Shown here piece after piece: positions 3,907 through 32,863 of a stretch of 32,863 bases of DNA. Position 1 is the first letter of the stretch; each line of letters opens with the position of its first letter. The position numbers and the translations under genes were made by a program. The notes beneath the pieces were generated by a model. That model was given only the letters and a program-made list of their open reading frames with translations. It did no database searches and had not been told where the DNA came from. The stretch is from Candidatus Omnitrophota bacterium (GTDB lineage: Bacteria; Omnitrophota; Gorgyraeia; Gygaellales; Profunditerraquicolaceae): positions 1-32,863 of the forward strand of contig VGKM01000003.1 in the NCBI GenBank assembly GCA_016867005.1. The letters run 5' to 3'.

Positions 3907-5580
3907 ATGGATATCAGGCCGGATATTAATTTATTGATACAAAAAGGGATCATTAGCCAGGAACAGGTGGATAAAGCAAGGGAAGAGAGCGCCAAGACAG
4001 GGCTTCCTATTGAGAAATCACTTGAGCGGCTGGGTTTTATTTCTGAAGTGGATATCGCAAAAATTGCCGCGGATTCTATCGGCGTGCCTTTTATCAATTT
4101 GACCGATTACCTGATAGATGCTGAAGCAATCAAGCTTGTCCCTGAGGCATTGGCGAAGAAATTTAAAGCAGTGCCTATTTTTAAAATAGGCGATAGTTTA
4201 ACCGTGGCAATGGCAGATCCCCGCGATATCGCGGCAATCGATGAAATCAGGTTAAAAAGCAAGGTCGGGATAATCGAGCCGGTCATATCTACGGTAGACA
4301 TGATCCAGAAAGTTATTGACCAGTATTATGGGGCTATCGGTAGCGCCGAGGAATTAGTCAAGGGCCTGACCAAAGAAAAAATGGAGGAGCGCCTCAAAGG
4401 GACAAAGGGGCTTGCCGAGATCGCCGAAGATGCACCTATCGTAAAATTAGTAAGTTTAATAATCATGCAGGCCGTAAAAGACAAGGCAAGCGATGTGCAT
4501 ATTGAGCCGGCTGAAGATAAAGTCCTTGTGCGTTACCGCATAGACGGTATTTTGCATGAGGTACAAAAGATACCTAAACACTTGCAGAGTGCTTTGGCAT
4601 CGCGCGTCAAGGTAATGGCAAGGATGGATATTGCCGAGACCCGTAATCCTCAGGACGGAAGGATACAATTAAAGATGGAGAATAAGGATCTTGACCTGAG
4701 GGTTTCTTCTTTTCCGACAATAAACGGAGAAAACCTGGTTTTAAGGATTTTGGATAAATCATCGGTCCTTATGGGGCTTGCGGAACTCGGGTTTGCCGGC
4801 AAGGATTTAAAAAACTTTGATAAACTTATCAGGCGGCCAAACGGGATAATCCTTGTTACCGGCCCCACTGGTTCGGGAAAAACCACGACTTTGTATGCCG
4901 CGCTTTCCACTATCAATTCCATAGAAAAGAATATCATTACCATTGAGGACCCTGTTGAGTATGAGATCCCGCTTATCCGGCAGACGCAGGTAAATCCGAA
5001 GGCAGGGCTTACTTTTGCTAACGGCTTGCGCAGTATCCTTCGCCAGGACCCCGATATAATCATGGTCGGCGAAATACGCGATAAAGAAACCGCAGAGATA
5101 GCGATCCAGGCGTCTTTAACCGGGCATTTAGTTTTTTCAACGCTGCACACAAACGATGCCCCGGGCGCCCTTACCCGCCTGATAGATATGGGGATTGAAC
5201 CGTTTTTAATCGCAAGTTCCATCACCGGTATCCTGGCTCAGAGATTAGTGCGTGTGATCTGCCCGAAGTGTAAAGAAAAATATACTCCTTCGGATGAGGT
5301 CATGCATGATTTAGGGTTGAAGGAGAAAGTTGAATTGTACCGAGGAAAAGGATGTATGCACTGTAAAGAGACCGGTTTTTCCGGAAGAGTAGGTATTTTT
5401 GAATTACTTCTTATGAATGAGGAGATAAAGAACCTGGTTACCGCAAAGGCATCAAGCGGCGATATCAAGAAAAAGGCCTTGGCTCAAGGGATGACTACTT
5501 TATATGAAGACGGGATGGAGAAAATAAAGAGCGGAGTAACTACCGCAGAAGAAATGCTTAGAGTGACAGAGGAGGTGTAG
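3907..5580 (+). CDS. gspE: GspE/PilB-type secretion/pilus assembly ATPase
   Basis: This 557-aa cytoplasmic hexameric ATPase powers pseudopilus or pilus polymerisation at the inner membrane. The N-terminal ~150 residues look like the T2SSE_N/MshEN domain. The motor core has Walker A GPTGSGKTT at about 319-327, a Walker B-type segment DPDIIMVGEIRD at about 380-390, and the His box TGHLVFSTLHTND. A C4 zinc site is formed by CPKC (about 452) and CMHC (about 483), as in both GspE and PilB. Length is normal. The start is an ATG 7 nt after the receiver gene. The downstream order F-G-H-I-J-K-L-M favours the gsp name, while the PilM/N/O/P-like genes are shared with type IV pili, so PilB is an equally valid label. 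No PilT-type retraction ATPase is in the window. Confidence 0.95.
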   Translation: MDIRPDINLLIQKGIISQEQVDKAREESAKTGLPIEKSLERLGFISEVDIAKIAADSIGVPFINLTDYLIDAEAIKLVPEALAKKFKAVPIFKIGDSLTVAMADPRDIAAIDEIRLKSKVGIIEPVISTVDMIQKVIDQYYGAIGSAEELVKGLTKEKMEERLKGTKGLAEIAEDAPIVKLVSLIIMQAVKDKASDVHIEPAEDKVLVRYRIDGILHEVQKIPKHLQSALASRVKVMARMDIAETRNPQDGRIQLKMENKDLDLRVSSFPTINGENLVLRILDKSSVLMGLAELGFAGKDLKNFDKLIRRPNGIILVTGPTGSGKTTTLYAALSTINSIEKNIITIEDPVEYEIPLIRQTQVNPKAGLTFANGLRSILRQDPDIIMVGEIRDKETAEIAIQASLTGHLVFSTLHTNDAPGALTRLIDMGIEPFLIASSITGILAQRLVRVICPKCKEKYTPSDEVMHDLGLKEKVELYRGKGCMHCKETGFSGRVGIFELLLMNEEIKNLVTAKASSGDIKKKALAQGMTTLYEDGMEKIKSGVTTAEEMLRVTEEV

Positions 5581-5803: not shown

Positions 5804-7018
5804 ATGCCAAACTTTAAATATAGGGCAAGAGATAAGTTTTCGAGGGCAGTTAGCGGCACAATTGCCGCATCCGGAGAAGACGAAGCAGCCAAAAAGCTCC
5901 AGGATATGGGGTATGTGCCTATATCTGTTGAAAAGGCCCGCGATTTTTCCGCCCATGACCTGCTTAAGAAATTCAAAAGCGTAAAGCTGGAGGAGGTTAA
6001 TGTTTTTACCCGCCAGCTTTATTCTTTGCAAAAAGCCGGCGTCCCTCTTTTGTCCAGTTTGGAAGTAATCGCTATCCAAAGTAAGAACATGTATTTCAGA
6101 AGTGTTATCGAAGAAATAGCGGCAAATATCAGGTCAGGCAATAGTTTTTCTGCCTCTCTTCGAAAATACCCAAAGATCTTCGACGAAGTTTATGTCAGTA
6201 TGGTTAAAGCAGCAGAGTCAGGCGGTAATATCGCCAATATCCTGGAAAGGTTAAGCGCCTTACTGGAACAGGATATTGATACAAGGGCAAGGATCAAATC
6301 TGCAACGCGTTATCCCTTGCTTGCTTTTGTAGTTTTGTGTATCGGGTTCCTGATCATGGTCACTTTTGTAATCCCCCGTTTTTCAGTGATTTATGGCCAA
6401 TTTAATGCGGAGCTGCCTTTGCCGACCCGCGTTTTAATTATGATAAACCTCTTAATCAGAAAATTCTGGTTTTTGTTTATCACGCTTATTATCGCAGGTT
6501 TTATCGGTTTTAGAAAATTCATTAGATCCGGCTTTGGCCGTCCTATATGGGATAATTTTAAGCTTAAAGTTTATGTCCTGGGCCCTTTGATGCAAATACT
6601 GATAATGTCCCGTTTTGCCAGGATCACCAGTTTATTGATGAAAAGCGGGGTCCCGATATTGGAGATCCTGGATTTAGTGGCAAATACATCAGGTAATATT
6701 ATTATCGCCCGCGCCATAAGAAACGTCAAAGAAAGCGTTAACCAGGGAAGGGGCATTTCAGAGCCGATGAAAGCAAGCGGCCTTTTCCCGCCGGTTGTCG
6801 TACAGATGGTGGCAATAGGAGAGCAAACCGGCAAAGTCGATGAGCTGCTTTTAAGCGTCGCAGACTACTATGACCGCGAATCCAGCTATATGATCAAGAA
6901 TTTGAGTACCTATATTGAACCGGCGTTGATCTTCGTTTTAGGAATAATGGTTTTAGTGATGGCACTAGCGATATTTTTGCCGATGTGGAACCTGATCAGG
7001 TTATTCAGGCCTTCTTAA
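5804..7018 (+). CDS. gspF: GspF/PilC-type inner-membrane platform protein
   Basis: This 404-aa polytopic protein couples the assembly ATPase to the growing pseudopilus. It opens with the typical NFKYRARD start and has two related cytoplasmic T2SSF domains (about 65-165 and 265-370), each with the phage-like FTRQL/FARITSLL helix pattern and GNI or SGN turns. Membrane helices fall at about 167-190, 218-238 and 370-395, and it ends with the common PMWNLI motif. Length matches PilC/GspF. It is cotranscribed with the ATPase and pilin genes. There are no unusual features. PilC of type IV pili and GspF cannot be separated by sequence inspection alone. Confidence 0.95.
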   Translation: MPNFKYRARDKFSRAVSGTIAASGEDEAAKKLQDMGYVPISVEKARDFSAHDLLKKFKSVKLEEVNVFTRQLYSLQKAGVPLLSSLEVIAIQSKNMYFRSVIEEIAANIRSGNSFSASLRKYPKIFDEVYVSMVKAAESGGNIANILERLSALLEQDIDTRARIKSATRYPLLAFVVLCIGFLIMVTFVIPRFSVIYGQFNAELPLPTRVLIMINLLIRKFWFLFITLIIAGFIGFRKFIRSGFGRPIWDNFKLKVYVLGPLMQILIMSRFARITSLLMKSGVPILEILDLVANTSGNIIIARAIRNVKESVNQGRGISEPMKASGLFPPVVVQMVAIGEQTGKVDELLLSVADYYDRESSYMIKNLSTYIEPALIFVLGIMVLVMALAIFLPMWNLIRLFRPS

Positions 7019-7020
7019 AG

Positions 7021-7404
7021 ATGGCAAAGCGCGGCCTTACGCTCTTTGAGTTATTGGTTTCGGTTTGCGTTATTTCTACTCTTATCGGTTTATTTGCAAT
7101 TTATGCCAACAATACCGTAAAGGTCTCAAGAGAGATTGCCTTGCAAAGCGAGCTTAAGAATATCCGGATGTCTATCCAGCATTTTTATATTTTAAACGGA
7201 AGATATCCCAACGATTTGTTTGAGTTAACGCGTGAGCCCTTGACAATAGGCAGTGATAATAGTAAAATAATACTTCAAAGTTACTTGGGTTCTTTCAGGG
7301 TTGACAAGGAAGGCTGTATGCTCGACCCTTTCTTCAATAGGTATGTTTATAACAAAGTAGATGGCTCGGTTCATCCGGGAGGCAATGATTACCAGCGGTG
7401 GTAA
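7021..7404 (+). CDS. Prepilin-like protein, GspG position (first pseudopilin)
   Basis: This 127-aa prepilin has a very short leader, MAKRG, followed by LTLFELLVSV, so cleavage by a prepilin peptidase would fall after Gly5 and leave the required Glu at +5. The +1 residue is Leu rather than the usual Phe. The hydrophobic N-terminal helix is followed by a soluble part with a proline- and Asp-rich end (MLDPFFNRYVYN), as in GspG-type pseudopilins. The ORF track extends to 6985, but that start lies inside the platform gene and adds 12 residues ahead of the leader. The ATG at 7021, two bases after the platform stop, is preferred. Its position after GspF matches gspG. Confidence 0.85.
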   Translation: MAKRGLTLFELLVSVCVISTLIGLFAIYANNTVKVSREIALQSELKNIRMSIQHFYILNGRYPNDLFELTREPLTIGSDNSKIILQSYLGSFRVDKEGCMLDPFFNRYVYNKVDGSVHPGGNDYQRW

Positions 7405-7479: not shown

Positions 7480-7881
7480 ATGGGTAAAAAGTCAGGTTTT
7501 ACTTTAATTGAATTAGTAATGGTCATAGTTATCCTCGGGATACTCGCCTCAGTCGCATTACCGACATTTTTCAACTTGCAGGAAGATGCAAAAAGAGCAG
7601 CTGTTAAAGGCGATTTAGGCGGCCTTCGCAGCGCAATTGCTATCTGGTATGCCAAGACAGCGGCATCGGCTGGTGTGGCATCATATCCTTCTATTACAGA
7701 ATTGAATTCTTCTCCCGGCGGGCCTTTAGCATTCGGCGTCCCGGTCAACCCTTATACAAATTCAAGCGGAATAATCGCGGGTGCCGCAGAAACTGCTAAT
7801 TCAAGCCAGGGATGGATTTATGACGTTACTACCGGCAGGATTTGGAGTTCCGCTCCGCAGACCCAGGGTTCGGGTTATTAG
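7480..7881 (+). CDS. Type II secretion/type IV pilin-like major (pseudo)pilin
   Basis: This 133-aa class-a-type prepilin has leader MGKKSG followed by FTLIELVMVIVILGILASVALP, the textbook type III signal, with cleavage after Gly6 and Glu at +5. The soluble part is small and Gly/Ser/Ala-rich. It contains a repeated-use YPS..ELNSSPGGPL segment and a C-terminal WIYDVTTGRIWS strand resembling the end of many PilA/GspG proteins. It has the strongest ribosome binding site of the cluster (AAGGAGGGG), is preceded by two hairpins and followed by a 12-bp hairpin, so it is likely the most abundantly made pilin here. It could be the major pseudopilin or a short type IV pilin. Confidence 0.9.
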   Translation: MGKKSGFTLIELVMVIVILGILASVALPTFFNLQEDAKRAAVKGDLGGLRSAIAIWYAKTAASAGVASYPSITELNSSPGGPLAFGVPVNPYTNSSGIIAGAAETANSSQGWIYDVTTGRIWSSAPQTQGSGY

Positions 7882-7907: not shown

Positions 7908-7949
7908 TAATGGCTGGCTTTTCAGAACAATTTGGAGAGCCAGCCATTA
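7908..7949 (+). promoter_or_regulatory. 12-bp perfect stem-loop after the major pilin gene
   Basis: TAATGGCTGGCT (7908-7919) pairs exactly with AGCCAGCCATTA (7938-7949) across an 18-nt loop. It lies 26 nt after the pilin stop and 6 nt before the likely start of the next gene. No U-tract follows (AATTATATG), so it is not a classical intrinsic terminator. It could stabilise the pilin mRNA 3' end or dampen translation of the glycosyltransferase, because its 3' arm occupies the ribosome-landing region. Confidence 0.6.
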
Positions 7950-7955
7950 AATTAT

Positions 7956-9461
7956 ATGATTAAGCGGCCGTATTTTAAACTTAAGTTTATCCTCATTGTT
8001 TTATTGGCTTGTATAAGTTTTGGTGTTTATATCAATTCTTTACAGGGCGGGTTCCTGATTGATGACCATGCAGGGATACTTGAAAATAAAAATATCCACG
8101 ATTTAAATTCCTACCTTAAGAATAATTTTAATTTTTCGCCAGGCGCTTTTGTTGAATTGGTGCGCGCAGTAATCTGGAACTTCTTTGGCAGCAATACCTT
8201 GCCTTATCACTTATTCAATGTCTTGGCGCATGTTGTTACGGTCATCCTTATATTTGTACTTTGCAATATTTTATTCAAAAATATAACCCTGTCATTTTTA
8301 ACAGGGCTAATTTTTGCGGTACATCCCATTCATACCGAAGCGGTAAGCTGGATTTCGGGCGGGCCTTATGTTTTATCAGCGTTATTTTTTACGCTTTCGC
8401 TTATTTTTTACATAAAATCAGAGCAGTCGATGTTTTATCTGGTTTTAACTGTTCTTGCTTTTGTATTGAGTTATCTGACCGGGAATTCCGCAGTTTCGCT
8501 TCCCCTTATATTTATAGTATATGAATTATTTTTCAGGGACAAAACACAAGATAGGGGAGTATTTTCCAGAAAGATAAGGATTTTTGTATTAGCTGCGCTA
8601 TTATTAACGGCAATAATGGTGGCAGCCATATTCTTTTTAAGAAGAAACACATTTATCCATACTATTTTTTATTTTAAGGGATTCAGCTATTTGGTAGTTG
8701 TTACAAAAGCGTTTCTTTATTATTTAAAGATCATTTACCTCCCCTTAGCAAGGGGGCTGTACCATCCTTTTGCCTATAACTCGGTTGATACCAGCAAGTT
8801 GAGCCCGGCATTCTTTGTTTCTCTGTCTGTGCTGGTATTTTCAATATTTTTGTTTTTTAAATGCCTTAAGAAAAACAAGCCGGTATCTTTTAGCATCGCT
8901 TTGTTTTTTGTCACCTATCTGCCTTATTCCAATATTATCCCTGTATGCAACATCATTTCCGAACGCTACGTTTATCTTCCGTCTTTGGGGGTCTCGCTTC
9001 TTATCGCCGCACTTTTTTTAATAGCATGGGAGGCGATAAATAAAGACCTTTCTTCTAAGAAAGTTTTAAGGATTATTGCTATGGTATTGCTGGTTTTATT
9101 TATTTTAAGTTACTCAATTCTGACGGTAAAACGCAATAATGAATACAAAGACATCATTACTTACTGGAAAACAAACATAAATAACTTTCCGGACGGTTAC
9201 ATGGCCTACAATAATCTGGCCGGTACATTTTATGTGATGGGCCAGACCGAGCAGGCCCTGGCTTATTCCTGGATAACGCTGATGATCAAGGCTGACCAGC
9301 CGCATGTCTGGTGCAATCTGGGTAAAGTTTATTTTGAGAAAAAAGATATGGCGATGTCGGAATTCTGCTATAAAGAAGCATTGAAGCTGGATAAGGGGTA
9401 TCCGCCGGCGATCCAGGGGATGAAACTGATCAAAGAAAAAGAGCTCCCTAAAAAGGATTAA
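7956..9461 (+). CDS. TMTC-like membrane glycosyltransferase (GT-C fold) with C-terminal TPRs
   Basis: This 501-aa polytopic protein has about ten hydrophobic segments, an early luminal loop with the acidic pair LIDDHAGI (catalytic Asp region of GT-C enzymes), then HPIHTEAVSWISG and a later ISERYVYLPS motif. These are typical of the TMTC/PMT-like family that transfers sugars from lipid carriers to proteins. Two TPR-like repeats occupy about residues 415-482 (YNNLAGTFYVMG, WCNLGKVYFEKKD). The ORF track starts at a TTG (7932) that lies in the loop of the hairpin at 7908-7949, so the ATG at 7956 is preferred. Lying inside the pilin gene run, it is a good candidate for pilin or pseudopilin O-glycosylation. 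The substrate is inference. Confidence 0.82.
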   Translation: MIKRPYFKLKFILIVLLACISFGVYINSLQGGFLIDDHAGILENKNIHDLNSYLKNNFNFSPGAFVELVRAVIWNFFGSNTLPYHLFNVLAHVVTVILIFVLCNILFKNITLSFLTGLIFAVHPIHTEAVSWISGGPYVLSALFFTLSLIFYIKSEQSMFYLVLTVLAFVLSYLTGNSAVSLPLIFIVYELFFRDKTQDRGVFSRKIRIFVLAALLLTAIMVAAIFFLRRNTFIHTIFYFKGFSYLVVVTKAFLYYLKIIYLPLARGLYHPFAYNSVDTSKLSPAFFVSLSVLVFSIFLFFKCLKKNKPVSFSIALFFVTYLPYSNIIPVCNIISERYVYLPSLGVSLLIAALFLIAWEAINKDLSSKKVLRIIAMVLLVLFILSYSILTVKRNNEYKDIITYWKTNINNFPDGYMAYNNLAGTFYVMGQTEQALAYSWITLMIKADQPHVWCNLGKVYFEKKDMAMSEFCYKEALKLDKGYPPAIQGMKLIKEKELPKKD

Positions 9462-9477
9462 ATAAATGCAGATTAAG

Positions 9478-9486
9478 TGTTATAAT
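9478..9486 (+). promoter_or_regulatory. Extended -10 promoter just upstream of gspH-like gene
   Basis: TGTTATAAT (9478-9486) is a perfect TGnTATAAT extended -10. Transcription would start about 7 nt later, at or next to the ATG at 9493, giving a leaderless or nearly leaderless mRNA. The -35 region is weak (TTAAAT at 9458-9463), which is normal for extended -10 promoters. It also argues against the upstream ATG at 9466. Confidence 0.45.
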
Positions 9487-9492
9487 AATCGC

Positions 9493-9987
9493 ATGAAAAG
9501 GCGCGGGTTTACTCTTATTGAAGCAATAATGGTCATTATGATCGTCGGGATCCTTGCCGCAGTAGTCTCTGTTGATTTTATCTCATCTTTTTCTACGTCG
9601 AAAATAGAAGCGGCCAGGTTTAAGCTGAAGAGCGATATTATTTATGCCCAGGAGTTAAGTGTTACGCAGCAGTTGAATCACGGCGTTATTTTTGATCCGG
9701 GCGGGGAAACCTATTCGGTTTATAAACAAACTACCGGCAATATCATTAATAACCCTTTGACAGGGGCGCCTTTTACAGTGAATTTTAATACGGACCCGGA
9801 TTTAACCGGCATAGATTTAGTATCTGCCAATTTCGGCGCGCCGACAACAAACCGTGTTGAATTCAATAGCTATGGCATTCCTTCCGACGGCACAACTGTT
9901 TTGGCTGCTAACGGCTCAGTTTCTCTTAGTTATTCGGGGCTAAACGGTTTGGTTACGGTAACCAAGAATACAGGGATGGTTAATTGA
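9493..9987 (+). CDS. GspH-like pseudopilin
   Basis: This 164-aa prepilin has leader MKRRG followed by FTLIEAIMVIMIVGILAAV, with cleavage after Gly5 and Glu at +5. The soluble region looks like GspH/FimT: a helix ending in KLKSDIIYAQELSVTQQ, then Gly/Thr-rich beta strands with V.FDPGGETYSVY and a final LNGLVTVTKNTG, as expected for the minor pilin at this place in gsp operons. The ORF track begins at 9466, adding nine residues. I chose 9493 because it gives a normal leader and lies just after a perfect extended -10 element. It overlaps the next gene by one base (TGATG). Confidence 0.85.
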   Translation: MKRRGFTLIEAIMVIMIVGILAAVVSVDFISSFSTSKIEAARFKLKSDIIYAQELSVTQQLNHGVIFDPGGETYSVYKQTTGNIINNPLTGAPFTVNFNTDPDLTGIDLVSANFGAPTTNRVEFNSYGIPSDGTTVLAANGSVSLSYSGLNGLVTVTKNTGMVN

Positions 9988-10373
9988 TGGGGAAAAAAGG
10001 GTTTACTCTTATCGAGACGGTAATTGTGATTATTGTTTTAGCAATTACCCTTACGCCCTTCAGCGTCCTTACGACCAATGTAATAAGCCGCAATGTCCGT
10101 TCTCAGGGGACGGCAACAGCTGTCAGCCTTGCTGAACAGGAAATGGAGAGGGTGACGGCTCTTAGGTTTTCTTTGGCCGTTGATGAGGCGGCTGCTTCTT
10201 TTTCCGCTCCTTTTAACGGTTTTACAAAAGAAATAATTGTAGATTATGTTAATTCAGGCAGCCTGAATACTCCTGTTGCAGGGCCTACTGATTATAAAAG
10301 AGTACAGGTAAAGGTCACAAGCGCCACTGCCGATACCATAACCCTTACAACATTAATAACAAATGACTGGTAA
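9987..10373 (+). CDS. GspI/PilV-like pseudopilin
   Basis: This 128-aa prepilin has leader MGKKG followed by FTLIETVIVIIVLAITLTPF. The helix continues into SLAEQEMERVTALRFS, the signature of GspI/PilV minor pilins (AEQEMERVTAL). The start is the ATG in TGATG, sharing a base with the previous stop. The ORF track's extra Met is a TTG one codon earlier. It ends 11 bases inside the following gene. Order and motif support the I position of a gsp set, a component of the tip complex with J and K. Confidence 0.87.
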   Translation: MGKKGFTLIETVIVIIVLAITLTPFSVLTTNVISRNVRSQGTATAVSLAEQEMERVTALRFSLAVDEAAASFSAPFNGFTKEIIVDYVNSGSLNTPVAGPTDYKRVQVKVTSATADTITLTTLITNDW

Positions 10374-10878
10374 AAAAAGTTTTACACTTATTGAACTTGT
10401 TATGGTGATGGTAATCGTAGGCATAATCGCCGGTATCGGTGTGCCTGTCATACTGACAACTGCTGATGCCTGGTCATTGGCAAGTTTTTTTCAGGATAAT
10501 GCGGTTTCTCAGGCAATAGTTGCGCAAAGCAGGATGTCCAGGGAGATCCGCCGGCTCTTAAATGACGCATCTGTAGCAGGCGCAAGTTCAACACAATATT
10601 CATTTACTGACCTAGGCAGCAATGTGATCACCTATAACAGAAGCGGCAATACCCTGATGCGTAATTCCGACGGGCTGGCAGCCAATGTTACAGCATTAAG
10701 TTTCATATATTATGATGATGATAACAATACTATAACTACCCCGGTAGTAAGCCCAGATGATACCGATATCAGGATAGTCCAGGGTAACTTTTCAATTCTG
10801 GCAGGCAGCAATACCTTGAATTTCCGATTTGCAACCAGGCCACAGAATTTAAGGCGGTTAAATGAAAAATTTAAATAA
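10363..10878 (+). CDS. GspJ/PilW-like pseudopilin with Ser at the -1 cleavage position
   Basis: This 171-aa minor pilin has N-terminus MTGKKS followed by FTLIELVMVMVIVGIIAGIGVP. The N-helix, +5 Glu and C-terminal half (SRMSREIRRLL, then ...LNFRFATRPQNLRR) match GspJ/PilW. The residue before the cleavage site is Ser, not the near-invariant Gly. Everything else in the signal is standard. Thus processing may be slower or need a tolerant peptidase, unless a base was miscalled (AGT for GGT after a run of seven A). It overlaps both neighbours by 11 and 17 bases, indicating translational coupling. Confidence 0.85.
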   Translation: MTGKKSFTLIELVMVMVIVGIIAGIGVPVILTTADAWSLASFFQDNAVSQAIVAQSRMSREIRRLLNDASVAGASSTQYSFTDLGSNVITYNRSGNTLMRNSDGLAANVTALSFIYYDDDNNTITTPVVSPDDTDIRIVQGNFSILAGSNTLNFRFATRPQNLRRLNEKFK

Positions 10879-12364
10879 AATTAAAGGCGTCAGTTTAGTT
10901 GTTGCCGTAGCAATAATGTTGATCTGCGGCGTACTGGGAGCTGTGATGGCGCAATTATTGGGAGTTACTTCGCGCGGCTCCGTGGATTATATGCGTTCTT
11001 CCCAGGCCTTAGGACTGGCTCAGGCAGGCATCAATTGGCAGATGATGCAACTAGCTACTGCAGCAGATTGGGATGTTTTGACCGGGCAGACGGTTTCTTT
11101 AGGGGGTTGGATATTTACGACAAGCTTAAGCAATTGGGCGCAGCCGCAAACCGACAGCTCTACAAGCACGCGCCTGGATATAAACGTTACAGGAAAGACA
11201 AACGGCTCGGATGGCGCTATCATCCAGCGCACGATGTCTCAATCCGCCTGGAAACTTCCTTCAGCAACTAAATTCGCACTTTTTTGGGGGAGAGACGTGG
11301 CAAATCTTTCTTTCAGTAATGTAGCGGTTTCCGGAGATTTTTGGTCAATCGGCTCAACCAGTATTCCCGGGAGTTCTTCCGTAACAAGCGGAAGCGCCTA
11401 TAGGCCGCAAGGAGAGGATATTTCAGGGGCGGGCTCATATACGGAAGTCGATGTTGGTGTATTCCCGTATTTTTCCAATTTTACAGGTTCAACTTCCACT
11501 CATTCTACTCCGCCTTTTGATGCGTCTTATTTTACAACTTTAACCAGTGACTACGATAGCCGTGAGGCAGCTTGCGTTACCGGCACTGATATTAACCAGA
11601 ATTCAAGCTTGGCTTTATCAGGCAATACAGTTTGCTGCCGCGACTTTAACACAAACGGGACTATAACAATAAGCGGTAACGGGTATATTATTGCCAATCG
11701 GGATATGTTGTTGCATACGCAGAACGGTGATTCAGGGACATTGACATTTTCTCCTTCCGGAGGGAACATTGTTTTGATCGCCGGGCGCGATATCCTTATT
11801 AATTCAGGCCAGAATGATACTCCGGTTACAATGAATTCCGGGGTAAGGATGTATTCGAAAAGCGACGGGGTTAATACCGGCGAGATTACCATTCGCAATA
11901 ATACGACAAACATCGACGATGCTTTAATATTGGCTGATCGGCGCATTATTATTCAGGACAGTGCAAATATAACCGGTTCTACTCTTTTTGTCAATGACCC
12001 TGGCAATGCCACAAATAATGTGCTTCGAATTGAGGATTCAGGCACAAGCGTTGGCACGCAAGCGTCTCCCTGCAATGTAATAAGTATCGGCCGCGGGACA
12101 CCGACAATCCAGATTACGGATACTGCAAGCGTTATAGGCCTTGTTTATCAAAGAGATGCAAATAATTTGGGAAGGACCAGGATTGACGGGCAAAATAATG
12201 CCAACAGGGTTAATATCACCGGTTCTGTAATAGCCAATGCTTTTCAGGGCAATGATATAGATAATGCCAATATTACTTATGACCCGGATAGTTTGCCTGA
12301 TCCTCCTATTGAAGGATTTGACGGTTTTGCTACCAAAAAACCTGATTCCTGGAGCGGAAATTGA
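10862..12364 (+). CDS. PilX/GspK-position protein with long beta-rich exported domain
   Basis: This 500-aa protein has an N-terminal signal resembling a type III prepilin signal, IKG followed by VSLVVAVAIMLICGVLGAVM, but lacking Glu at +5, as is common in GspK. The ~460-residue remainder is rich in Gly, Asn, Ser, Thr and Asp with repeated short beta patterns (GNIVLIAGRDILI, DALILADRRIIIQDSANITG, NRVNITGSVIANAF), suggesting a right-handed beta-helix or similar fold. Position after H-I-J is that of gspK, the pseudopilus tip. The usual GspK domain pattern is not evident, so it may be a PilX-like tip protein or surface adhesin. The prepilin signal is moderate evidence; the tip role is inference. 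Confidence 0.75.
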   Translation: MKNLNKIKGVSLVVAVAIMLICGVLGAVMAQLLGVTSRGSVDYMRSSQALGLAQAGINWQMMQLATAADWDVLTGQTVSLGGWIFTTSLSNWAQPQTDSSTSTRLDINVTGKTNGSDGAIIQRTMSQSAWKLPSATKFALFWGRDVANLSFSNVAVSGDFWSIGSTSIPGSSSVTSGSAYRPQGEDISGAGSYTEVDVGVFPYFSNFTGSTSTHSTPPFDASYFTTLTSDYDSREAACVTGTDINQNSSLALSGNTVCCRDFNTNGTITISGNGYIIANRDMLLHTQNGDSGTLTFSPSGGNIVLIAGRDILINSGQNDTPVTMNSGVRMYSKSDGVNTGEITIRNNTTNIDDALILADRRIIIQDSANITGSTLFVNDPGNATNNVLRIEDSGTSVGTQASPCNVISIGRGTPTIQITDTASVIGLVYQRDANNLGRTRIDGQNNANRVNITGSVIANAFQGNDIDNANITYDPDSLPDPPIEGFDGFATKKPDSWSGN

Positions 12365-12402: not shown

Positions 12403-12654
12403 ATGAAAATATCAGGCCTGAAGATTGATTCCATTTCCTCGCTATTCTCTCCGAAAACGAATTCCTTTGTTATCGCTGACCTTAGTTCAGGGTTAAAGCT
12501 TTCTTATGCCAATTTTAGTAACGGTATCAAGGTTTTAGCGGCAGAAGATATTGCATGCAGCCACCAAATGCATGAGGTGATATTGAGCTCACTGCGCGCT
12601 TTCTTAAAAGATAATAATATACAGTCAAGGAACACGATTCTTCCCCTTTCTTAA
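12403..12654 (+). pseudogene. pilM: PilM N-terminal part, upstream half of frameshifted pilM-pilN
   Basis: This 83-aa fragment reads as the start of the actin-like PilM/GspL cytoplasmic domain (FVIADLSSGLKLSYAN, then ILSSLRAFLKDNNIQSRNTI). It ends at TAA after TILPLS. The next frame continues with the expected PilM text LSSVFVKRIQLP, overlapping this stop region, so a single missing base in or near CCCCTTTCTT (12643-12652) would join both halves. PilM normally continues without a break at this beta strand, so this is a real mutation or a sequencing/assembly error. A classic -1 slippery heptamer is not present in frame. Confidence 0.8.
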
Positions 12655-12680
12655 GCTCTGTTTTTGTAAAAAGAATACAA

Positions 12681-14027
12681 TTGCCCTGTGTTTCGGACGC
12701 GGAATTGCTGGAGGCGATTAAATGGAAGATAAAGGATGAACTGCCGTTTGAACTTGAAAAAGCGGTTTTCGATTATCAGATCATCAAGAAGAGTTCTTTA
12801 AATGACGGCTCAAAGGTATTTGACCTGGCCTGTATTGCAGCGCTTGAAGAAGAAATAACCAGCCAGGTAGTTTTATTAAAACAGGCAGGGCTTAATGTCA
12901 TCGGAGTAGGTTTTGCGCCTTTCGGTTATATCAGGCTGATAGAAAAGTATCTGGCAGAGGATAAAGGGGCAGCCCAGGCAGTATTATACCTATGGGCAAA
13001 TGCCAGTTATCTTAATATTTATAAAGACAATAAGCTGGTTTTCTTCAGGGAGCTTCCGGTCTCCCTCAATAAATTCAGAAATTCTCTTTCTGCTGCGTTG
13101 GTCACCGAGAAAGGCAAAGTCCAATTAAGCCCTCTTCAGATAGAAGACATCCTTTTTAAACACGGCGTCCCGATCCCCGAATCGGGCCTTTATAACGACA
13201 AAACAATGGCAAGCCAGATCATGGCAATGTGGCGCCCAGCCCTTGAAGCATTAGCCCAGGAAATAAAGCGTTCCTTTGTTTATTATAAATCGCAATTCCA
13301 GGAAGAAGATGCCGGTAAAATATTTGTTGCTGCTGAGGCACAAAATATAATCAACCTGGATAAATTCCTGGCAAAAGAGCTATCTTCCGAAGCCGAAGTT
13401 TTTCCCGTTATAGAGAAAATCTTGCCTCCGCCGCAAACCAGCCCTTCGGAATTGGTAAAAATTTACCCGGGTATCGGGCTGGCAATTGATTATAAACACA
13501 ATATCAATCTTCTGCCGCGGCAATTCCGGACAGAGAAAATTGAGAATGTCCAGAAGATCTCTCTGCGTTGGGTCGCTTTTATCGCATTTTTATTGTTAGC
13601 GGTTTCATATATCCTTGCCCGGGCAGGCGTGACTGCTTATGAAAAAAGATTGGACCGCACATTATTCCAGCTCAATGTCTTATCCGAGATAAAGAATATA
13701 AAAAATAAGCTGGATGCATTCGAGATCTTTTCTGCCGGTGTCAAGGACAGAGAGCTGCCGTTAGGGGAGATTTTTAAAAAAATCAGCAATATTTCCCCCA
13801 GAGAGATGTTTTTTAATTCACTCGTAATTAATTGCGGCTCAAAGACAGGTTCGATTTCCGGCTATGTTAAGACCACAAATCAAAACGCAGATTCAATCCT
13901 TACCCAGTTTATCAGCCAGTTAAATTCTTCAAAGATGTTTTTTGATGTTAATCTGAGCGAGCTTAAGAAAACCGGCACTCAGGGGTTTGATTTGGCAAAT
14001 TTTGAAATAAGCTTTAGGATAAAATGA
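12681..14027 (+). CDS. PilM C-terminal part fused to PilN (GspL-like), downstream half of the frameshifted gene
   Basis: The ORF track starts at a TTG that is probably not a true start; the same frame is open to at least 12651 and supplies SSVFVKRIQLP. The first ~265 residues complete PilM: CVSDAELLEAIKWKIKDELPFE, then an ATPase-like fold ending IYPGIGLAIDY. Immediately after comes the PilN hallmark NINLLPRQFR (about 274-283), a membrane helix (about 296-318), a coiled coil and a periplasmic ferredoxin-like domain with GSISGYVKTT. PilM and PilN are normally separate, with PilM binding the INLLP tail. Here they are one chain, the architecture of GspL. It overlaps the PilO gene by four bases. 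Function is the inner-membrane alignment complex. Confidence 0.88.
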   Translation: MPCVSDAELLEAIKWKIKDELPFELEKAVFDYQIIKKSSLNDGSKVFDLACIAALEEEITSQVVLLKQAGLNVIGVGFAPFGYIRLIEKYLAEDKGAAQAVLYLWANASYLNIYKDNKLVFFRELPVSLNKFRNSLSAALVTEKGKVQLSPLQIEDILFKHGVPIPESGLYNDKTMASQIMAMWRPALEALAQEIKRSFVYYKSQFQEEDAGKIFVAAEAQNIINLDKFLAKELSSEAEVFPVIEKILPPPQTSPSELVKIYPGIGLAIDYKHNINLLPRQFRTEKIENVQKISLRWVAFIAFLLLAVSYILARAGVTAYEKRLDRTLFQLNVLSEIKNIKNKLDAFEIFSAGVKDRELPLGEIFKKISNISPREMFFNSLVINCGSKTGSISGYVKTTNQNADSILTQFISQLNSSKMFFDVNLSELKKTGTQGFDLANFEISFRIK

Positions 14028-14590
14028 TGGAACTCACAAGAGAACAGAAGAAGATCATTTATATTGCCGCGTTGGTTGCGGCATTTTTGATGTTTTTCTG
14101 GATTTTTATTTATATACCGCAAAGCCGTAAGCTTAAGGAAATCCAGCATAAATTAAGTATCACCGAGGGCGAAATTTCCGATATAAACCGTATCACCGGA
14201 GGCATGCCTGAAGCAGAGGCCGTACAAGGCCTGAATAATAAGCTTAACCAGATGATAGCAGGTTTCGGAGATTCCGACGATGATATAATCGATGCATTGT
14301 CTAAGGCAGCCAGGGAGCTGAAAATAACCATCAATAATATTTCACTTTCCAGCCGTCAGTTGATAAACTCTCAAATTCCCGGATATGAAGTCAGGGAAAT
14401 GCCGGTTTCTTTGAAGCTTACGGCTGAATACAGGCCGTTGGGGGAATTTTTGTACAGGATAAGGGATAATTTCCCTGTTTTATTAACAGTAAGGAATCTT
14501 TCAATAAGCGGCGAAGGAGAAGGGGATCCCCGTTTAGACGTGGATTTGGAGATCTCGGCCTATTTATTATCGCCTGCTTCAGGGCAATAG
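14024..14590 (+). CDS. pilO: PilO/GspM-like inner-membrane alignment protein
   Basis: This 188-aa bitopic protein has a short cytoplasmic start (MMELTREQKK), one membrane helix (about 11-31), a coiled-coil region (QSRKLKEIQHKLSITEGEISDI), and a periplasmic ferredoxin-like domain with YEVREMPVSLKLTAEYRPLGEFLYRI, typical of PilO. It pairs with PilN (here the C-terminal part of the fused protein) to form the inner-membrane alignment complex. The start ATG overlaps the previous stop (ATGATGG; either Met could be used). Next gene is PilP-like. Confidence 0.88.
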   Translation: MMELTREQKKIIYIAALVAAFLMFFWIFIYIPQSRKLKEIQHKLSITEGEISDINRITGGMPEAEAVQGLNNKLNQMIAGFGDSDDDIIDALSKAARELKITINNISLSSRQLINSQIPGYEVREMPVSLKLTAEYRPLGEFLYRIRDNFPVLLTVRNLSISGEGEGDPRLDVDLEISAYLLSPASGQ

Positions 14591-14594
14591 AAGA

Positions 14595-15050
14595 ATGGAT
14601 AAGCAAAAAAAAGAGATTATCATTACCGGGGTACTGGCATTGGTCTTCGTTTTTACTCTTACAAACAGTATCCGCAAGATAAAGGCGCGCTATAGCCCTG
14701 CAGCAAGGACTGTTGTTCAATCTATACCAGGGAAGGCGCAGGTATCAGTACCTTCTGTATCTCTAAAACAGGAAGATGCCGCGCCGCTAAAGAATATCGA
14801 GAAAGAACAACTGGATTGGATCAGGGATCCTTTTTCAGGAAAGATCTATTTTAGCAAAGAAGAAGGTGCGGCGATTGATTTAAACCTGACCGGTATTGTC
14901 TGGGATGAGCAAAAACCCCGGGCGCTTATCAATAGCGACATAGTCCAGGAAGGAAGCACGATAGGCCAGTTCAGGGTATTGAAAATTTTTAAAGATAAAG
15001 TAGTATTGGAGCAGGGGGCGAAAACTTTTGAGCTCCGTTTAAAACAGTAG
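14595..15050 (+). CDS. PilP/GspB-GspC-like periplasmic connector protein
   Basis: This 151-aa protein has an N-terminal membrane anchor (about 8-25), a Pro/Ser/Val-rich linker, a WIRDPFSGK motif (about 75), and a compact beta domain with LNLTGIVWDEQKPRALIN and VVLEQGAKTFELRL. This matches the HR-like domain shared by PilP, GspB and GspC, which links the inner-membrane complex to the secretin. There is no lipobox, unlike many PilP lipoproteins. It starts 5 bases after pilO and is the last gene of the assembly run. Its presence implies a secretin elsewhere in the genome. Confidence 0.82.
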   Translation: MDKQKKEIIITGVLALVFVFTLTNSIRKIKARYSPAARTVVQSIPGKAQVSVPSVSLKQEDAAPLKNIEKEQLDWIRDPFSGKIYFSKEEGAAIDLNLTGIVWDEQKPRALINSDIVQEGSTIGQFRVLKIFKDKVVLEQGAKTFELRLKQ

Positions 15051-24026: not shown

Positions 24027-24464
24027 ATGTTTTACGGCGAGTATCTTCATTCTATAGACAGGAAAGGCCGTCTCATTCTGCCTGCCAAATTTCGCGAGTC
24101 AGCTAAGAACAATTTCATTGAGAAATTCTTTATGACGCGGGGTTTGGACAAATGCCTTTTTATGTTCGGGGAAGAGGAGTGGAAACAACAGGAAAATAAA
24201 TTTAAATCCGTGTCCTTTACCAAGCAGGAATCGCGTACATTTAACCGCCTGTATTTTTCCGGAGCCGTAGATATCGTGCCTGATAAGCAGGGGAGGATCC
24301 TGGTACCGCAATACCTGAAGGATTTTGCGGAAATCAAAAAAGATGTTATTGTGGTCGGGGTCTCCAACAGAATAGAGATTTGGTCAAAAGACAAATGGCA
24401 GAGTTTTTATGGGAATTCCCAAAAGTCCTTTGAAGAGATCGCTGAGAAATTAATCGATTTATAA
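24027..24464 (+). CDS. mraZ: Transcriptional regulator MraZ
   Basis: This 145-aa protein has two SpoVT/AbrB-like halves, the N-terminal FYGEYLHSIDRKGRLILPAKFRE and the central SGAVDIVPDKQGRILVPQYL, each carrying the D.(K/Q)GR.L(L/V)P DNA-binding motif. It forms a ring-shaped oligomer that binds repeat boxes upstream of its own gene and controls the dcw cluster. AAAGGAG lies about 10 bases before the ATG. Its cognate-looking boxes are in the leader. First gene of the division block. Confidence 0.97.
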   Translation: MFYGEYLHSIDRKGRLILPAKFRESAKNNFIEKFFMTRGLDKCLFMFGEEEWKQQENKFKSVSFTKQESRTFNRLYFSGAVDIVPDKQGRILVPQYLKDFAEIKKDVIVVGVSNRIEIWSKDKWQSFYGNSQKSFEEIAEKLIDL

Positions 24465-24484
24465 AACATAATGGATTTTCTTAA

Positions 24485-25375
24485 GTGGCAAAACTACATA
24501 TACCCGTAATGCTTAAAGAAGCTACAGAATATTTAAATTTATCGCCCGGAAATATAGTAGTGGATGCGACGGTAGGTACGGCGGGCCACTCTGAGGCCAT
24601 ACTGGAAAGCATTACTCCCGGCGGGCGCCTGATCGCCGTTGACCGCGATCAGGAGTCGCTGGTAATAGCAAAAGAGAGGCTTAAGCGCTGGCAAGATTCA
24701 TGCAGCTTTGTGCATGGGAATTTTTCTGATATCAATATCATTTTAGGGGAGCTGGGCATCAAGAGGATCGACGGCATATTATTCGATCTGGGGCTTTCTA
24801 CTTTTCAACTTGATAATCCCGAAAGGGGTTTTAGTTTTCAGCAGGAAGGGCCGCTCGATATGCGCATGGACAGAGAAAGCTATATCTCGGCATATGACCT
24901 GGTGAACAACCTTAATGAGGAAGAGCTTTCAGGGCTTATCCGTAATTACGGGCAGGAAAGGTTCCATAACCGTATCGCGCATCTGTTGGTCCAAGAAAGA
25001 GAGAAGCATCCGATTGCCACGACCCGTGAATTATCCAATATCATAGTCCGGGCAATACCGCATCGTTTCAGGCACTACCGGATCCATCCGGCAACCAGGA
25101 CTTTTCAGGCCGTGCGGATCGCAGTGAACAGGGAGCTGGAGATATTGGAAGGGGCACTGGAGAAAGCAATCAGCTTCCTGAACAATAAGGGAAGGGTCTG
25201 CGTGATCTCTTTTCATTCGCTCGAAGATAGGATCGTAAAATTAACTTTTAAGAAAGCAAAGGCTCAAGGGCTGGTAGAGATCGTTACTCCTAAGCCCCTG
25301 GTCCCACAGTGGCAGGAGGTTAAGGATAATTCCGCCAGCCGCAGCGCTAAATTCCGCGTTGCAGAAAAGGTCTGA
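24485..25375 (+). CDS. rsmH: 16S rRNA (cytosine1402-N4)-methyltransferase RsmH
   Basis: This 296-aa S-adenosylmethionine-dependent methyltransferase modifies C1402 of 16S rRNA. Key motifs: HIPVMLKEA at the N-terminus, VVDATVGTAGHSEAIL (SAM site), GILFDLGLSTFQLD, GPLDMRMDR, TFQAVRIAVNRE and VISFHSLEDRIVK. The start is GTG at 24485; a nearer ATG at 24471 is out of frame. No strong ribosome binding site precedes it. It stands in the conserved position between mraZ and ftsL. Confidence 0.97.
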   Translation: MAKLHIPVMLKEATEYLNLSPGNIVVDATVGTAGHSEAILESITPGGRLIAVDRDQESLVIAKERLKRWQDSCSFVHGNFSDINIILGELGIKRIDGILFDLGLSTFQLDNPERGFSFQQEGPLDMRMDRESYISAYDLVNNLNEEELSGLIRNYGQERFHNRIAHLLVQEREKHPIATTRELSNIIVRAIPHRFRHYRIHPATRTFQAVRIAVNRELEILEGALEKAISFLNNKGRVCVISFHSLEDRIVKLTFKKAKAQGLVEIVTPKPLVPQWQEVKDNSASRSAKFRVAEKV

Positions 25376-25377
25376 CT

Positions 25378-25746
25378 ATGAAGTTAAATAAATTTATATC
25401 CGCAACTGTTTTTGTTACTGCTTTTTCCCTCCTTTATGTATACCAGCAAACAGAGGTTTTCCGGCTTGCTTATGTAGGGCAGAAAAAGGCCTCCAGCTTC
25501 CAGGATTTACTTGATAAGAATTCGTTTCTTCGTTATAATATAGAACGCAGCACATCGCTTACTCGTATCGGAAGCAAGATTTCCGGCGCGCATGATTATG
25601 AGATGCCGGAAAGCTACCGTTTGGTTAGGTTAAACAGGCCTCCTGCAGCTTTTAAATTAGCCAGACACGTTTACAAGAAAGAAACGTTATTATCTCGCCT
25701 TTTTGGGATTAAAAGACAGGCTGAGGCAAGGCAAGTCAATCCTTAA
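25378..25746 (+). CDS. ftsL: FtsL-like division protein
   Basis: This 122-aa bitopic protein has one membrane helix at about residues 5-22 and a short coiled-coil-prone region (VFRLAYVGQKKASSFQDLLDKNSFLRYNIERSTS), then a basic, proline-containing C-terminus. Sequence conservation in FtsL is poor, so the assignment rests on size, topology, and the slot between rsmH and ftsI, two bases after the rsmH stop. It would form a complex with FtsB and FtsQ-type proteins that regulates septal FtsWI. Confidence 0.8.
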   Translation: MKLNKFISATVFVTAFSLLYVYQQTEVFRLAYVGQKKASSFQDLLDKNSFLRYNIERSTSLTRIGSKISGAHDYEMPESYRLVRLNRPPAAFKLARHVYKKETLLSRLFGIKRQAEARQVNP

Positions 25747-25779
25747 AATTTAGTTTCCAATATTTTATTTTAAAATTTC

Positions 25780-27480
25780 GTGTATATCCGTAATTACCAT
25801 CGCCGAGTCAATGCGGTATTTTTAATCTTTTTTTTGCTGTTGGTTTTTTGCGCCTTTCGCCTTGTTTTCATCCATTTTTTCCGCGGAAATTACCTCGCCT
25901 CTTTAGCAAGAAAGCAGCATAACCTTTTTATAGAGCTTGAGCCCCGCAGAGGGGCTATTTATGATACCAACCTCCGCCCGCAGGCCTTTAATGTAGCCGT
26001 TGATTCGGTTTATGCCGCTCCAAACGAAATACCGGAAAAAGATAAAGATAGGATTGCCGGCCAGCTTGCGCCTATTCTTAATACAGAATATGCCAAATTA
26101 AAGGACAAGTTGTCGCGCAAAAAGTCATTTATCTGGCTGGCGAGAAAAATTTCTCCGCAACAGGCCAATGCCATTAAAGAGCTAAAGATCAAAGGAATCG
26201 GCTTTATCAAAGAAAGTAAGCGCAGCTATCCTAATGGATACCTCTTAAGCCATGTCATCGGTTTTGCCGGGATTGATAATCTGGGGCTCGACGGAATAGA
26301 ATTAAGATTGAACAATTACCTCAAAGGAGAGCCCGGCTGGGCGCTGTTTTTAAGGGATGCCCGGCAGAAGAAGCTGGACATCTGGGAAAAAATGGTTTCT
26401 CCCCGCGACGGTTTTGATGTGATATTGACTATAGATGATGTTATTCAGTATATCGCAGAAAGGGAATTGGATAAGGCCTTTAAAGCGACTCACGCAAAAG
26501 GGGCAAGCATTGTTGTTATGAACCCCCATACCGGAGAGATACTCGCTTTGGCAAATAGGCCGACGTTTGACCTCAATGAATACCCCGGGGCACCCAAAGA
26601 TAATCTGCGCGACCGTGCCATTACGGATATGTTTGAACCAGGCTCAGTATTTAAGATCGTCACCGCTTCCGCTGCGATAGAGGAAGGCAAGGTTTCAGAA
26701 GAAGAGAAGGTCTATTGTGAAAACGGCGCTTATAAGATCGCCGGGCACATACTTCATGACCATCAGCCGCATGGGACGCTTACTTTTACCGAAGTGATCG
26801 AGCAGTCCAGTAATATCGGCACATGTAAAATCGCTCAAATAGTGGGAGCCGAAAATATATACCGCTATGAAAAGAAATTTGGTTTTGGCATAAAAAGCGG
26901 GATCGACCTGCCCGGAGAGATCTCCGGTTCCGTAAAAGAACCGCGTTTCTGGTCTAAGACCTCTATCACTGCCGTACCTATGGGGCATGAGGTGGGGGTT
27001 ACTGCTTTACAGCTGGCAAATGCTGTTTCAGCAATAGCTAACGGCGGTAACCTGATGAGGCCTTATGTTGTCCGCATGATAAGGGATAAATTCGGCGAAG
27101 AGATCGTTTCTAATGAACCTGTATTCGTCAATAAGGTGATGTCTTTGGATTCTGCGGCAAGGGTCAGGAAGATGCTTATTGGAGTTGTAGAAAAAGGGAC
27201 GGGGAAACTAGCAAGGATCCCTCAGGTAACTGTTGCCGGTAAAACCGGCACTGCCCAGAAAATCGAACCTAACGGAACATATTCGCATGATAAATTTGTG
27301 GCGACCTTTATAGGTTTTACTCCTGCTGAGGACCCGGTTTTAGCGATTGCAGTAGTAATTGATGAGCCCCGCCCTTATTATTTCGGCGGGGTAGTGTCTG
27401 CGCCGGTATTTAAGAATGTTGCAATGGATGCCCTGAGGTATTTAAAATCAAGAGAGCCGCTTGTAGTATTGCAAAATTAA
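25780..27480 (+). CDS. ftsI: Division penicillin-binding protein FtsI (PBP3-type transpeptidase)
   Basis: This 566-aa class B penicillin-binding protein cross-links septal peptidoglycan. One membrane anchor (about 12-33) is followed by the dimerisation domain (RGAIYDTNLRPQAF) and transpeptidase with Ser289-Lys292 (GSVFK), Ser343-Ser344-Asn345 and Lys488 (KTGTAQK). No PASTA domains follow. The start is GTG 33 bases after ftsL, without an obvious ribosome binding site; no in-frame ATG lies before the anchor. It works with FtsW encoded at the window end. Confidence 0.96.
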   Translation: MYIRNYHRRVNAVFLIFFLLLVFCAFRLVFIHFFRGNYLASLARKQHNLFIELEPRRGAIYDTNLRPQAFNVAVDSVYAAPNEIPEKDKDRIAGQLAPILNTEYAKLKDKLSRKKSFIWLARKISPQQANAIKELKIKGIGFIKESKRSYPNGYLLSHVIGFAGIDNLGLDGIELRLNNYLKGEPGWALFLRDARQKKLDIWEKMVSPRDGFDVILTIDDVIQYIAERELDKAFKATHAKGASIVVMNPHTGEILALANRPTFDLNEYPGAPKDNLRDRAITDMFEPGSVFKIVTASAAIEEGKVSEEEKVYCENGAYKIAGHILHDHQPHGTLTFTEVIEQSSNIGTCKIAQIVGAENIYRYEKKFGFGIKSGIDLPGEISGSVKEPRFWSKTSITAVPMGHEVGVTALQLANAVSAIANGGNLMRPYVVRMIRDKFGEEIVSNEPVFVNKVMSLDSAARVRKMLIGVVEKGTGKLARIPQVTVAGKTGTAQKIEPNGTYSHDKFVATFIGFTPAEDPVLAIAVVIDEPRPYYFGGVVSAPVFKNVAMDALRYLKSREPLVVLQN

Positions 27481-27490
27481 AGCGATTACG

Positions 27491-28942
27491 ATGAAGCTAT
27501 CCAGCTTGTTTAAAGGTATTTTAGAATATAAGGCCGGGGCCGGAATACCCGATATCGAGATCAAAGGTATTAGCAGTGATTCCAAGAAAACATCCTGCGG
27601 GTATATTTTTGTTGCGGTAAAAGGCGCCTGTTTTGACGGCCACCGTTTTATCAAAGAGGCGGTGGATAACGGTGCCAGCGTAATATTGGCAGAAAAACCC
27701 CGGCAGGCAGGTTATTGCCATAATGTGCCGGTGCTCCCGGTAAAAGATTCAAGGAGCGTATTAGCAAGATTAGCATCTGTATTTTACGGCAGGCCAAGCG
27801 ATAAACTTAAAATTATCGGTATCACCGGGACTAACGGAAAAACAACAGTCACATATCTTATAGAGGCATTGTTAAGAAATGCTAAGAAAAAAACAGGAGT
27901 CATAGGGACGATCAATTATCGTTTTAACGGGAAAATCATACCTTCGGTCAATACTACTCCCGGGCCGCTGGAGTTGCAGCCGATGTTTAAAGGCATGTTG
28001 GATAGTAAAGCAGAGTATCTTGTTATGGAAGTTTCTTCGCATGCATTGGACCAGAAGAGAGTCGAAGGCATAAAATTCCAAAGTGCCATATTTACAAACT
28101 TAACAGGCGACCACCTTGATTACCATGGGAGTTTCTCGAACTATTTTCATGCAAAAGCTAAACTCTTCAGGGCTCTCCCCGGAAGTTCTGCAGCCATTAT
28201 CAATATTGACGACCCTTATGCTAATAAGCTGATAAATATGACCAAGGCAAGAGTTATCACCTATGGCATAAAGAACAAGGCAAATATTATGGCAGGCGGT
28301 ATAAAATCCGGCCCCCGGTATACCGAATTTATTTTAAGCTGGGGAAAAAATAAGCTGCAGGTTAAGTCCCCGCTTATAGGCAGGCATAATATTTATAATA
28401 TTCTTGCTGCAGCCAGTTTTGCGCTTGAAGAAGGGTTAAGGCCGGCACTTATTAAATCGGCATTGGAGAAATTTGTGGCGGCCCCCGGCCGGCTGGAAAG
28501 GATAGATTCGGGTAGGGATTTTAGTTGTTTCGTTGACTATGCCCATACGCACGATGCCCTTAAGAACGTCATAGTCGCCCTTAGAGAAATTTCCCGCAAT
28601 AAAATAATCGTGGTCTTTGGTTGCGGCGGAGACAGGGACAAGTTAAAAAGGCCGCTGATGGGTAAAGTCGCTACCGAGTTGGCAGATTTTTCCGTGATAA
28701 CCAATGATAACCCGCGTTCAGAAAATCCCCGGAAGATAATCTCTGATATTGAAAGAGGGATAAGAAAAGACAATTTTTGCGTTGTCCTGGACCGTAAAAA
28801 GGCAATCAAAAAAGCGATTTCTCTTGCCGCCAAAGGAGATGTTATCCTGGTAGCCGGCAAGGGGCATGAGGTTTACCAGGTTTTGGGGGATAAAAAGATC
28901 CATTTTGATGACCGAGAGGCAGTCAGAGAATGTTTACGATAA
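27491..28942 (+). CDS. murE: UDP-MurNAc-tripeptide synthetase MurE, likely meso-DAP specific
   Basis: This 483-aa cytoplasmic ligase adds the third residue of the stem peptide. Motifs: GISSDSKKT (UDP-MurNAc binding), ITGTNGKTTVTYL (ATP), NLTGDHLDYHGS, FVDYAHTHDAL and the substrate motif DNPR at residues 406-409. DNPR is the signature of meso-diaminopimelate enzymes, as opposed to lysine-adding forms, indicating a DAP-type peptidoglycan. VAGKGHE is present near the end. The last 13 bases overlap murF. Confidence 0.97.
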   Translation: MKLSSLFKGILEYKAGAGIPDIEIKGISSDSKKTSCGYIFVAVKGACFDGHRFIKEAVDNGASVILAEKPRQAGYCHNVPVLPVKDSRSVLARLASVFYGRPSDKLKIIGITGTNGKTTVTYLIEALLRNAKKKTGVIGTINYRFNGKIIPSVNTTPGPLELQPMFKGMLDSKAEYLVMEVSSHALDQKRVEGIKFQSAIFTNLTGDHLDYHGSFSNYFHAKAKLFRALPGSSAAIINIDDPYANKLINMTKARVITYGIKNKANIMAGGIKSGPRYTEFILSWGKNKLQVKSPLIGRHNIYNILAAASFALEEGLRPALIKSALEKFVAAPGRLERIDSGRDFSCFVDYAHTHDALKNVIVALREISRNKIIVVFGCGGDRDKLKRPLMGKVATELADFSVITNDNPRSENPRKIISDIERGIRKDNFCVVLDRKKAIKKAISLAAKGDVILVAGKGHEVYQVLGDKKIHFDDREAVRECLR

Positions 28943-30282: not shown

Positions 30283-30284
30283 GC

Positions 30285-31373: not shown

Positions 31374-31379
31374 ATTTCT

Positions 31380-32648: not shown

Positions 32649-32649
32649 T

Positions 32650-32863
32650 ATGCTGCGTACCATCCGGATAAACCTGTTTATTGTAACCGTGATCCTGATC
32701 TGTATCGGGGTCGTAATGATTTTCAGCGCTTCGAGTATTTATACATGGGAAAGGTACAAAGACAGTTTTTTCTTTTTAAAGAGGCACCTTTTGTTCCTTC
32801 TGATCGGTTCTGTCCTGACTTTTCTGGCTATGGCAATCGATTACCGCATACTGCGTAAATTTG
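32650..32863 (+). CDS. ftsW: FtsW, N-terminal part (runs off the window end)
   Basis: The frame from ATG at 32650 stays open to the last base (71 codons) and is absent from the ORF track because no stop is inside the window. It reads MLRTIRINLF, a hydrophobic helix, GVVMIFSASSIY, then FLKRHLLFLLIGSVL and a second helix ending DYRILRKF. This is the characteristic SEDS start (VMIFSASS, KRHLLFL) of FtsW, the septal glycosyltransferase partner of FtsI. Position after murD is the conserved dcw order. RodA is less likely here. Confidence 0.9.
   Translation, partial: MLRTIRINLFIVTVILICIGVVMIFSASSIYTWERYKDSFFFLKRHLLFLLIGSVLTFLAMAIDYRILRKF

Follow-up and report, generated by a model that had tools for sequence, protein, structure and literature searches.

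A PilM–PilN fusion in the GspL position of a pilin gene cluster from a Candidatus Omnitrophota bacterium

The window, by which we mean the whole stretch of 32,863 nucleotides analysed here, carries a gene that joins the pilus proteins PilM and PilN in one chain. We are confident, on balance, that it represents the L subunit of a type IV filament machine whose genes are ordered as in a type II secretion system (T2SS); in this clade it probably serves as an ATP-free tether. A preliminary description of the sequence had proposed a true PilM–PilN fusion with the single-chain layout of GspL, and intact orthologues, sequence profiles and an orthologue model all bore this out.

Intact orthologues identify a PilM–PilN fusion

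The open reading frame 12681–14027 on the forward strand is open throughout, and its translation runs from PilM through the INLLP motif and a membrane helix into a PilN-type periplasmic domain without a stop, as had been described (Table 1). The PilM share of this frame corresponds to the C-terminal two thirds of the domain. The preliminary description had treated 12403–14027 as one fusion gene; the PilM–PilN content stood, whereas the region is read in two frames, with the switch somewhere in 12618–12654. The gene is interrupted in this assembly, with a sequence error and a real lesion both candidate causes. Of the seven orthologues described below, L002 is the best match to the N-terminal piece (42% identity over 73 residues, E = 5e-12). 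A programmed frameshift was considered unlikely, as inspection of the switch by eye revealed no canonical slippery heptamer and no orthologue is broken.

Table 1. Coordinates of the fused gene, its parts and the surrounding cluster
Feature	Position	Strand	Evidence
GspE/PilB assembly ATPase with MshEN domain	3907..5580	+	family models
GspF/PilC platform protein	5804..7018	+	family models
Two GspG/pilin-like genes	6985-7404, 7480-7881	+	family models
Three minor pilins, H-I-J position	9466-9987, 9984-10373, 10363-10878	+	N-methylation motif, GspH/PilV-type matches
GspK-position gene, hydrophobic N terminus	10862..12364	+	no family match; same position in relatives; K by position only
PilM-like domain, N-terminal ~80 residues (83 codons)	12403..12654	+	different frame; stop inside gene; matches seven orthologues
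Interval holding the frame switch	12618..12654	+	only place where both frames are open; seven orthologues unbroken
PilM-like actin-fold domain, rest	12681..13493	+	PF11104, TIGR01175; PilM structures match orthologue model
INLLP motif at PilM/PilN junction, the N-terminal PilN motif of split systems	13503..13517	+	NLLP nearly invariant across alignment of 26 relatives
Single membrane-spanning helix	about 13563..13619	+	hydropathy; long helix 380-452 in orthologue model
Periplasmic PilN/GspL-type domain	13620..14027	+	PF05137; 3jc8 PilN alignment; orthologue-model secondary structure
GspM/PilO-like inner-membrane protein	14024..14590	+	T2SSM_b above its cut-off (E 1.5e-4); PilO (E 8e-4)
PilP/GspC-HR-like protein	14595..15050	+	N-terminal membrane helix, no lipobox; T2SSB weak

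A search of 58 related genomes for the same fusion returned orthologues in seven of them (G006, G009, G012, G008, G051, G016 and G030; 40–52% identical), each a single open frame of 539–567 codons encoding a chain of about 530–550 residues, and none with a stop between the pilM and pilN halves. Because all seven are unbroken chains, the fusion must be both real and ancient. That two adjacent genes were joined by an error of assembly or annotation can be dismissed with near certainty: the frame break does show that errors occur in the window gene, but it falls within PilM and some 850 bases away from the PilM/PilN junction, and the single frame recurs in seven independent genomes and in the 88 fused genes counted below. 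We also consider it unlikely that the window copy is a decaying pseudogene. Such decay would fit the break and the absence from the genome of another member of this clade, yet conserved sequence survives in both halves (42% and 52% identity to the nearest orthologue), there are no further stops and the operon genes next to it are intact, as expected if the break is a sequencing error or arose very recently. With its own copy interrupted, the fusion may not be active in this organism.

Family models recognized both halves. Among 26 relatives, Pfam PilM_2 matched all and PilN matched 21. The window protein itself matched PilM_2 over residues 5–126 (E = 7.6e-15; 55.1 bits against a cut-off of 27) and TIGR01175 below the cut-off of that model; its PilN match was borderline overall, scoring 20.1 bits in the protein scan (residues 364–447, E = 6.9e-4; cut-off 22.8) and 23.5 bits, over the cut-off, in the genome search. 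Profile comparison with solved PilM chains gave E-values of 3e-54 and 1e-51. The match to 5eou ran 10 residues further, into the INLLP stretch, and the PilN of 3jc8 aligned collinearly from INLLP onward (E = 0.004); the INLLP region does match PilN. Conversely, GspL models found little in the 26 relatives and the window protein: PF05134 matched none, PF12693 (GspL_C) and TIGR01709 one relative each, and the profile comparison with E. coli GspL was weak (probability 39.6 over 87 columns). A phage origin was rejected, the protein from the junction to the end having no match in phage records.

The preliminary description had also suggested comparing the predicted structure with GspL and PilM–PilN. 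An AlphaFold model of the orthologue in G006, for which an alignment of 26 rows was used, reached a mean pLDDT of 86.8, and its best PDB match was the PilM:PilN(1-12) complex of Pseudomonas aeruginosa (5eou, E = 6.5e-23), followed by other PilM chains, Myxococcus xanthus PilM (3jc8) and Thermus thermophilus PilM–PilN (2ych). Cytoplasmic domains of GspL matched less well (1yf5, E = 1.2e-8; 4pht, E = 7.4e-8). The periplasmic part is modelled as helix-strand-strand-helix-strand-strand, and this C-terminal order fits the ferredoxin-like fold described for PilN, PilO, GspL and GspM (PMC4471445; PMC6233222).

Open reading frames with a PilM domain were counted in 57 genomes and one Saganbacteria record. 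The 144 frames comprised 88 fused, 55 non-fused and one unclear case, all counts being lower bounds that cover fetched matches only, and 33 genomes carried both types. Three of the 55 non-fused frames look like truncated or interrupted fused genes. In a 44-row tree, which is unrooted and leaves out the more divergent fused lineages, the window clade had a support of 100, its grouping with a sister clade 96, and a single branch divided fused from separate proteins. On a 144-row tree, independent fusions would require a minimum of 4 to 7 changes, a count set aside as unreliable given long branches and truncated rows.

The fusion occupies the GspL position of a T2SS-ordered cluster

The cluster follows the order E-F-G-H-I-J-K-L-M, as in gspE–M of E. 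coli K-12, with the fused gene in the GspL position between the GspK-position and GspM/PilO-like genes; the E–M block recurs in G006 and G012. That the fusion adjoins PilO- and PilP-like genes was likewise correct. The start codon of the GspM/PilO-like gene overlaps the stop of the fused gene, and its product also matched GspM/XpsM with an E-value of 3e-8, below the cut-off of that model. For the PilP/GspC-like protein, a predicted model (pLDDT 70.6, C-terminal domain ordered) had M. xanthus PilP, the GspC HR domain, GspB and P. aeruginosa PilP as its top folds, with weak E-values of 0.014 to 0.17.

From this arrangement we propose how the fused protein may work. The actin-like half in the cytoplasm most likely keeps the assembly ATPase of the cluster at the membrane, and the INLLP stretch would dock on the actin-like half of the same chain, as the PilN tail does in split systems. 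The helix and periplasmic half would pair with the PilO/GspM-like protein, and the PilP/GspC-like protein may link the fused protein to a secretin.

Split and fused systems run in parallel in one genome

A conventional split system and fused systems are present side by side in the genome of the window. Contig C73 starts with a separate PilN (MIEINLLPEEL...), followed by genes for PilO, a PilP-like protein and PilQ, the contig edge cutting anything before; because the same genome has this pilN-pilO-pilP-pilQ operon, the window cluster represents a parallel machine. Three fused PilM-type genes were found, on C3 (the window), C2 and C129. The surroundings of the C2 gene (L055, 7872–9410 and 10677–12357) resemble the order pilM(N)-O-P-secretin-E-F, and it adjoins ExbB/ExbD/TonB-like sequences. 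A prepilin peptidase (PF01478) was not found in this 86%-complete genome, and five relatives have exactly one each.

The window operon contains no secretin, with four secretin matches elsewhere in the genome, and none was found in the operons of G006, G009, G012, G030, G022 and G027, all of which have a separate pilM or pilN elsewhere. In G008 and G016 the contig stops a short way past the operon. In G011, G037 and G044, for which no separate pilM was found, the operon ends in a secretin that scored 615, 353 and 124 bits, respectively, to the PilQ of the window genome. Both its score and its synteny, with the same downstream genes, mark the G011 secretin as a PilQ orthologue. This pattern (Fisher p about 0.005 over nine genomes, post hoc and ignoring kinship) suggests that PilQ may be shared between systems.

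These secretins also bear on whether the cluster is instead a type IV pilus with an incidental fusion of PilM and PilN, drawing on PilQ and PilT retraction ATPases encoded elsewhere. We regard this as possible though somewhat improbable. PilT-length ATPases are present in these genomes, and the three genomes without a separate pilM place a secretin at the end of the operon, in G011 a PilQ orthologue; but the pattern was noticed post hoc in few and related genomes, and the G044 secretin is not clearly PilQ. The T2SS gene order, the membrane-anchored PilP/GspC-like protein without a lipobox and the genome's own pilN-pilO-pilP-pilQ operon likewise point away from a pilus. The placement of the system between type IV pili and type II secretion in the preliminary description needs qualifying: matches to PilM and PilN models and the G011 PilQ support it, whereas the T2SS gene order and the separate pilus operon do not.

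The window clade lacks the nucleotide-binding signatures of PilM

Judged from the alignment, the window clade has lost all three nucleotide-binding signatures. The first-loop glycine is absent from all nine rows (0/9), the second-loop glycine is present in one of nine, that one a contig-edge fragment, and the adenosine GG is present in at most one of eight readable rows, L002, where it lies one position off. The first-loop lysine is retained. By contrast, the signatures are mostly kept by separate PilM (first loop 47/54, adenosine 44/54, second loop 52/54) and by the three nearest fused lineages, namely the sister clade (5/6, 4/6 and 5/6 in the same order), a clade of 525-residue proteins (10/10, 7/10 and 10/10) and one of 600-residue proteins (12/13, 13/13 and 13/13). 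Fused clades further away, among them those of the C2 and C129 genes, are largely degenerate as well (29/52, 5/52 and 7/52). The signatures were therefore probably lost more than once, and fusion does not in itself entail their loss.

In the window clade, the actin-like half is thus probably an ATP-free tether. A PilM half of this kind would be workable, because in T. thermophilus PilF is still bound, and in vitro stimulated, by a PilM variant that has no ATP binding (PMC6325625).

Relation to known systems

GspL has been described as a PilM–PilN fusion (PMC10191384, PMC6325625), and the layout itself is therefore not new. GspL, EpsL and PulL share with the window gene a single chain in which one membrane helix connects an actin-like domain in the cytoplasm to a ferredoxin-like periplasmic domain (the last as seen in the orthologue model), as well as the gene position between gspK and gspM. 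They differ in that the window family lacks the T2SSL match, gives only the isolated GspL_C and TIGR01709 hits mentioned above, and has kept a PilM-sized actin-like domain and the NLLP motif. PilM and PilN of type IVa pili are closer in their PilM_2 and PilN matches and in the best structures, which are PilM and PilM:PilN complexes. There, however, PilM is a separate soluble protein, whereas in the window family one gene encodes both parts, as every intact orthologue shows. The nucleotide-binding signatures are gone from the window clade, and in the window E-F-G-H-I-J-K lie upstream. The best fold match, 5eou, likewise holds PilM and a PilN tail in one chain record, but is an engineered laboratory construct with only 12 PilN residues. 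All 26 relatives also matched the Amuc_1101 family (NF045709, a PilM-like pilus protein of Akkermansia; best E = 2e-38), whose model of about 600 residues consists of a PilM-like part and further sequence, although scores were far under the cut-off (41 against 650 bits for the window fragment).

Three points seem new: a version of PilM/PilN type in the GspL position, its coexistence with split systems, and a loss of the nucleotide signatures that is specific to certain lineages. Systems resembling T4aP are held to be the source of the T2SS (PMC10191384; for a study of the superfamily, see PMC6668835). It is conceivable, if rather doubtful, that one bacterial order keeps the whole path, from split PilM and PilN through fused chains with ATP-site signatures to fused chains without them, often in the same genome. 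Were this true, the transition from type IV pili to the T2SS, or a parallel repeat of it, would be open to experimental dissection. Known GspL sequences have drifted so far that such steps are difficult to make out, whereas the fused chains here are still recognizable as PilM and PilN. Lineages that differ in the survival of the signatures would further offer a route to asking what purpose ATP binding serves in PilM and whether a fused chain can do without that binding.

Further genes in and around the clusters

Within the pilin cluster, 7932–9461 encodes a multi-pass membrane protein with C-terminal TPR repeats. It occurs in the same place in G006 and G009 (L057, L058); in G012 a glycosyltransferase-like pair takes that place. 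The gene just upstream of pilM or pilMN ends, in many loci, in a short C-terminal tryptophan motif, seen by eye in the variants SWSGN, SWSGI, SWREQES, SWEE, NWQE and EWQETD; these loci include the window (10862–12364), L002, L004, L005, L036–L040 and others. The pilus cluster is followed by a division and wall cluster at 24027–32863, with mraZ, mraW, ftsL, ftsI, murE, murF, mraY, murD and the start of ftsW, names assigned by reading the sequences only. Finally, locus L166 (4616–8042) carries a tandem pair of PilB-type ATPase genes.
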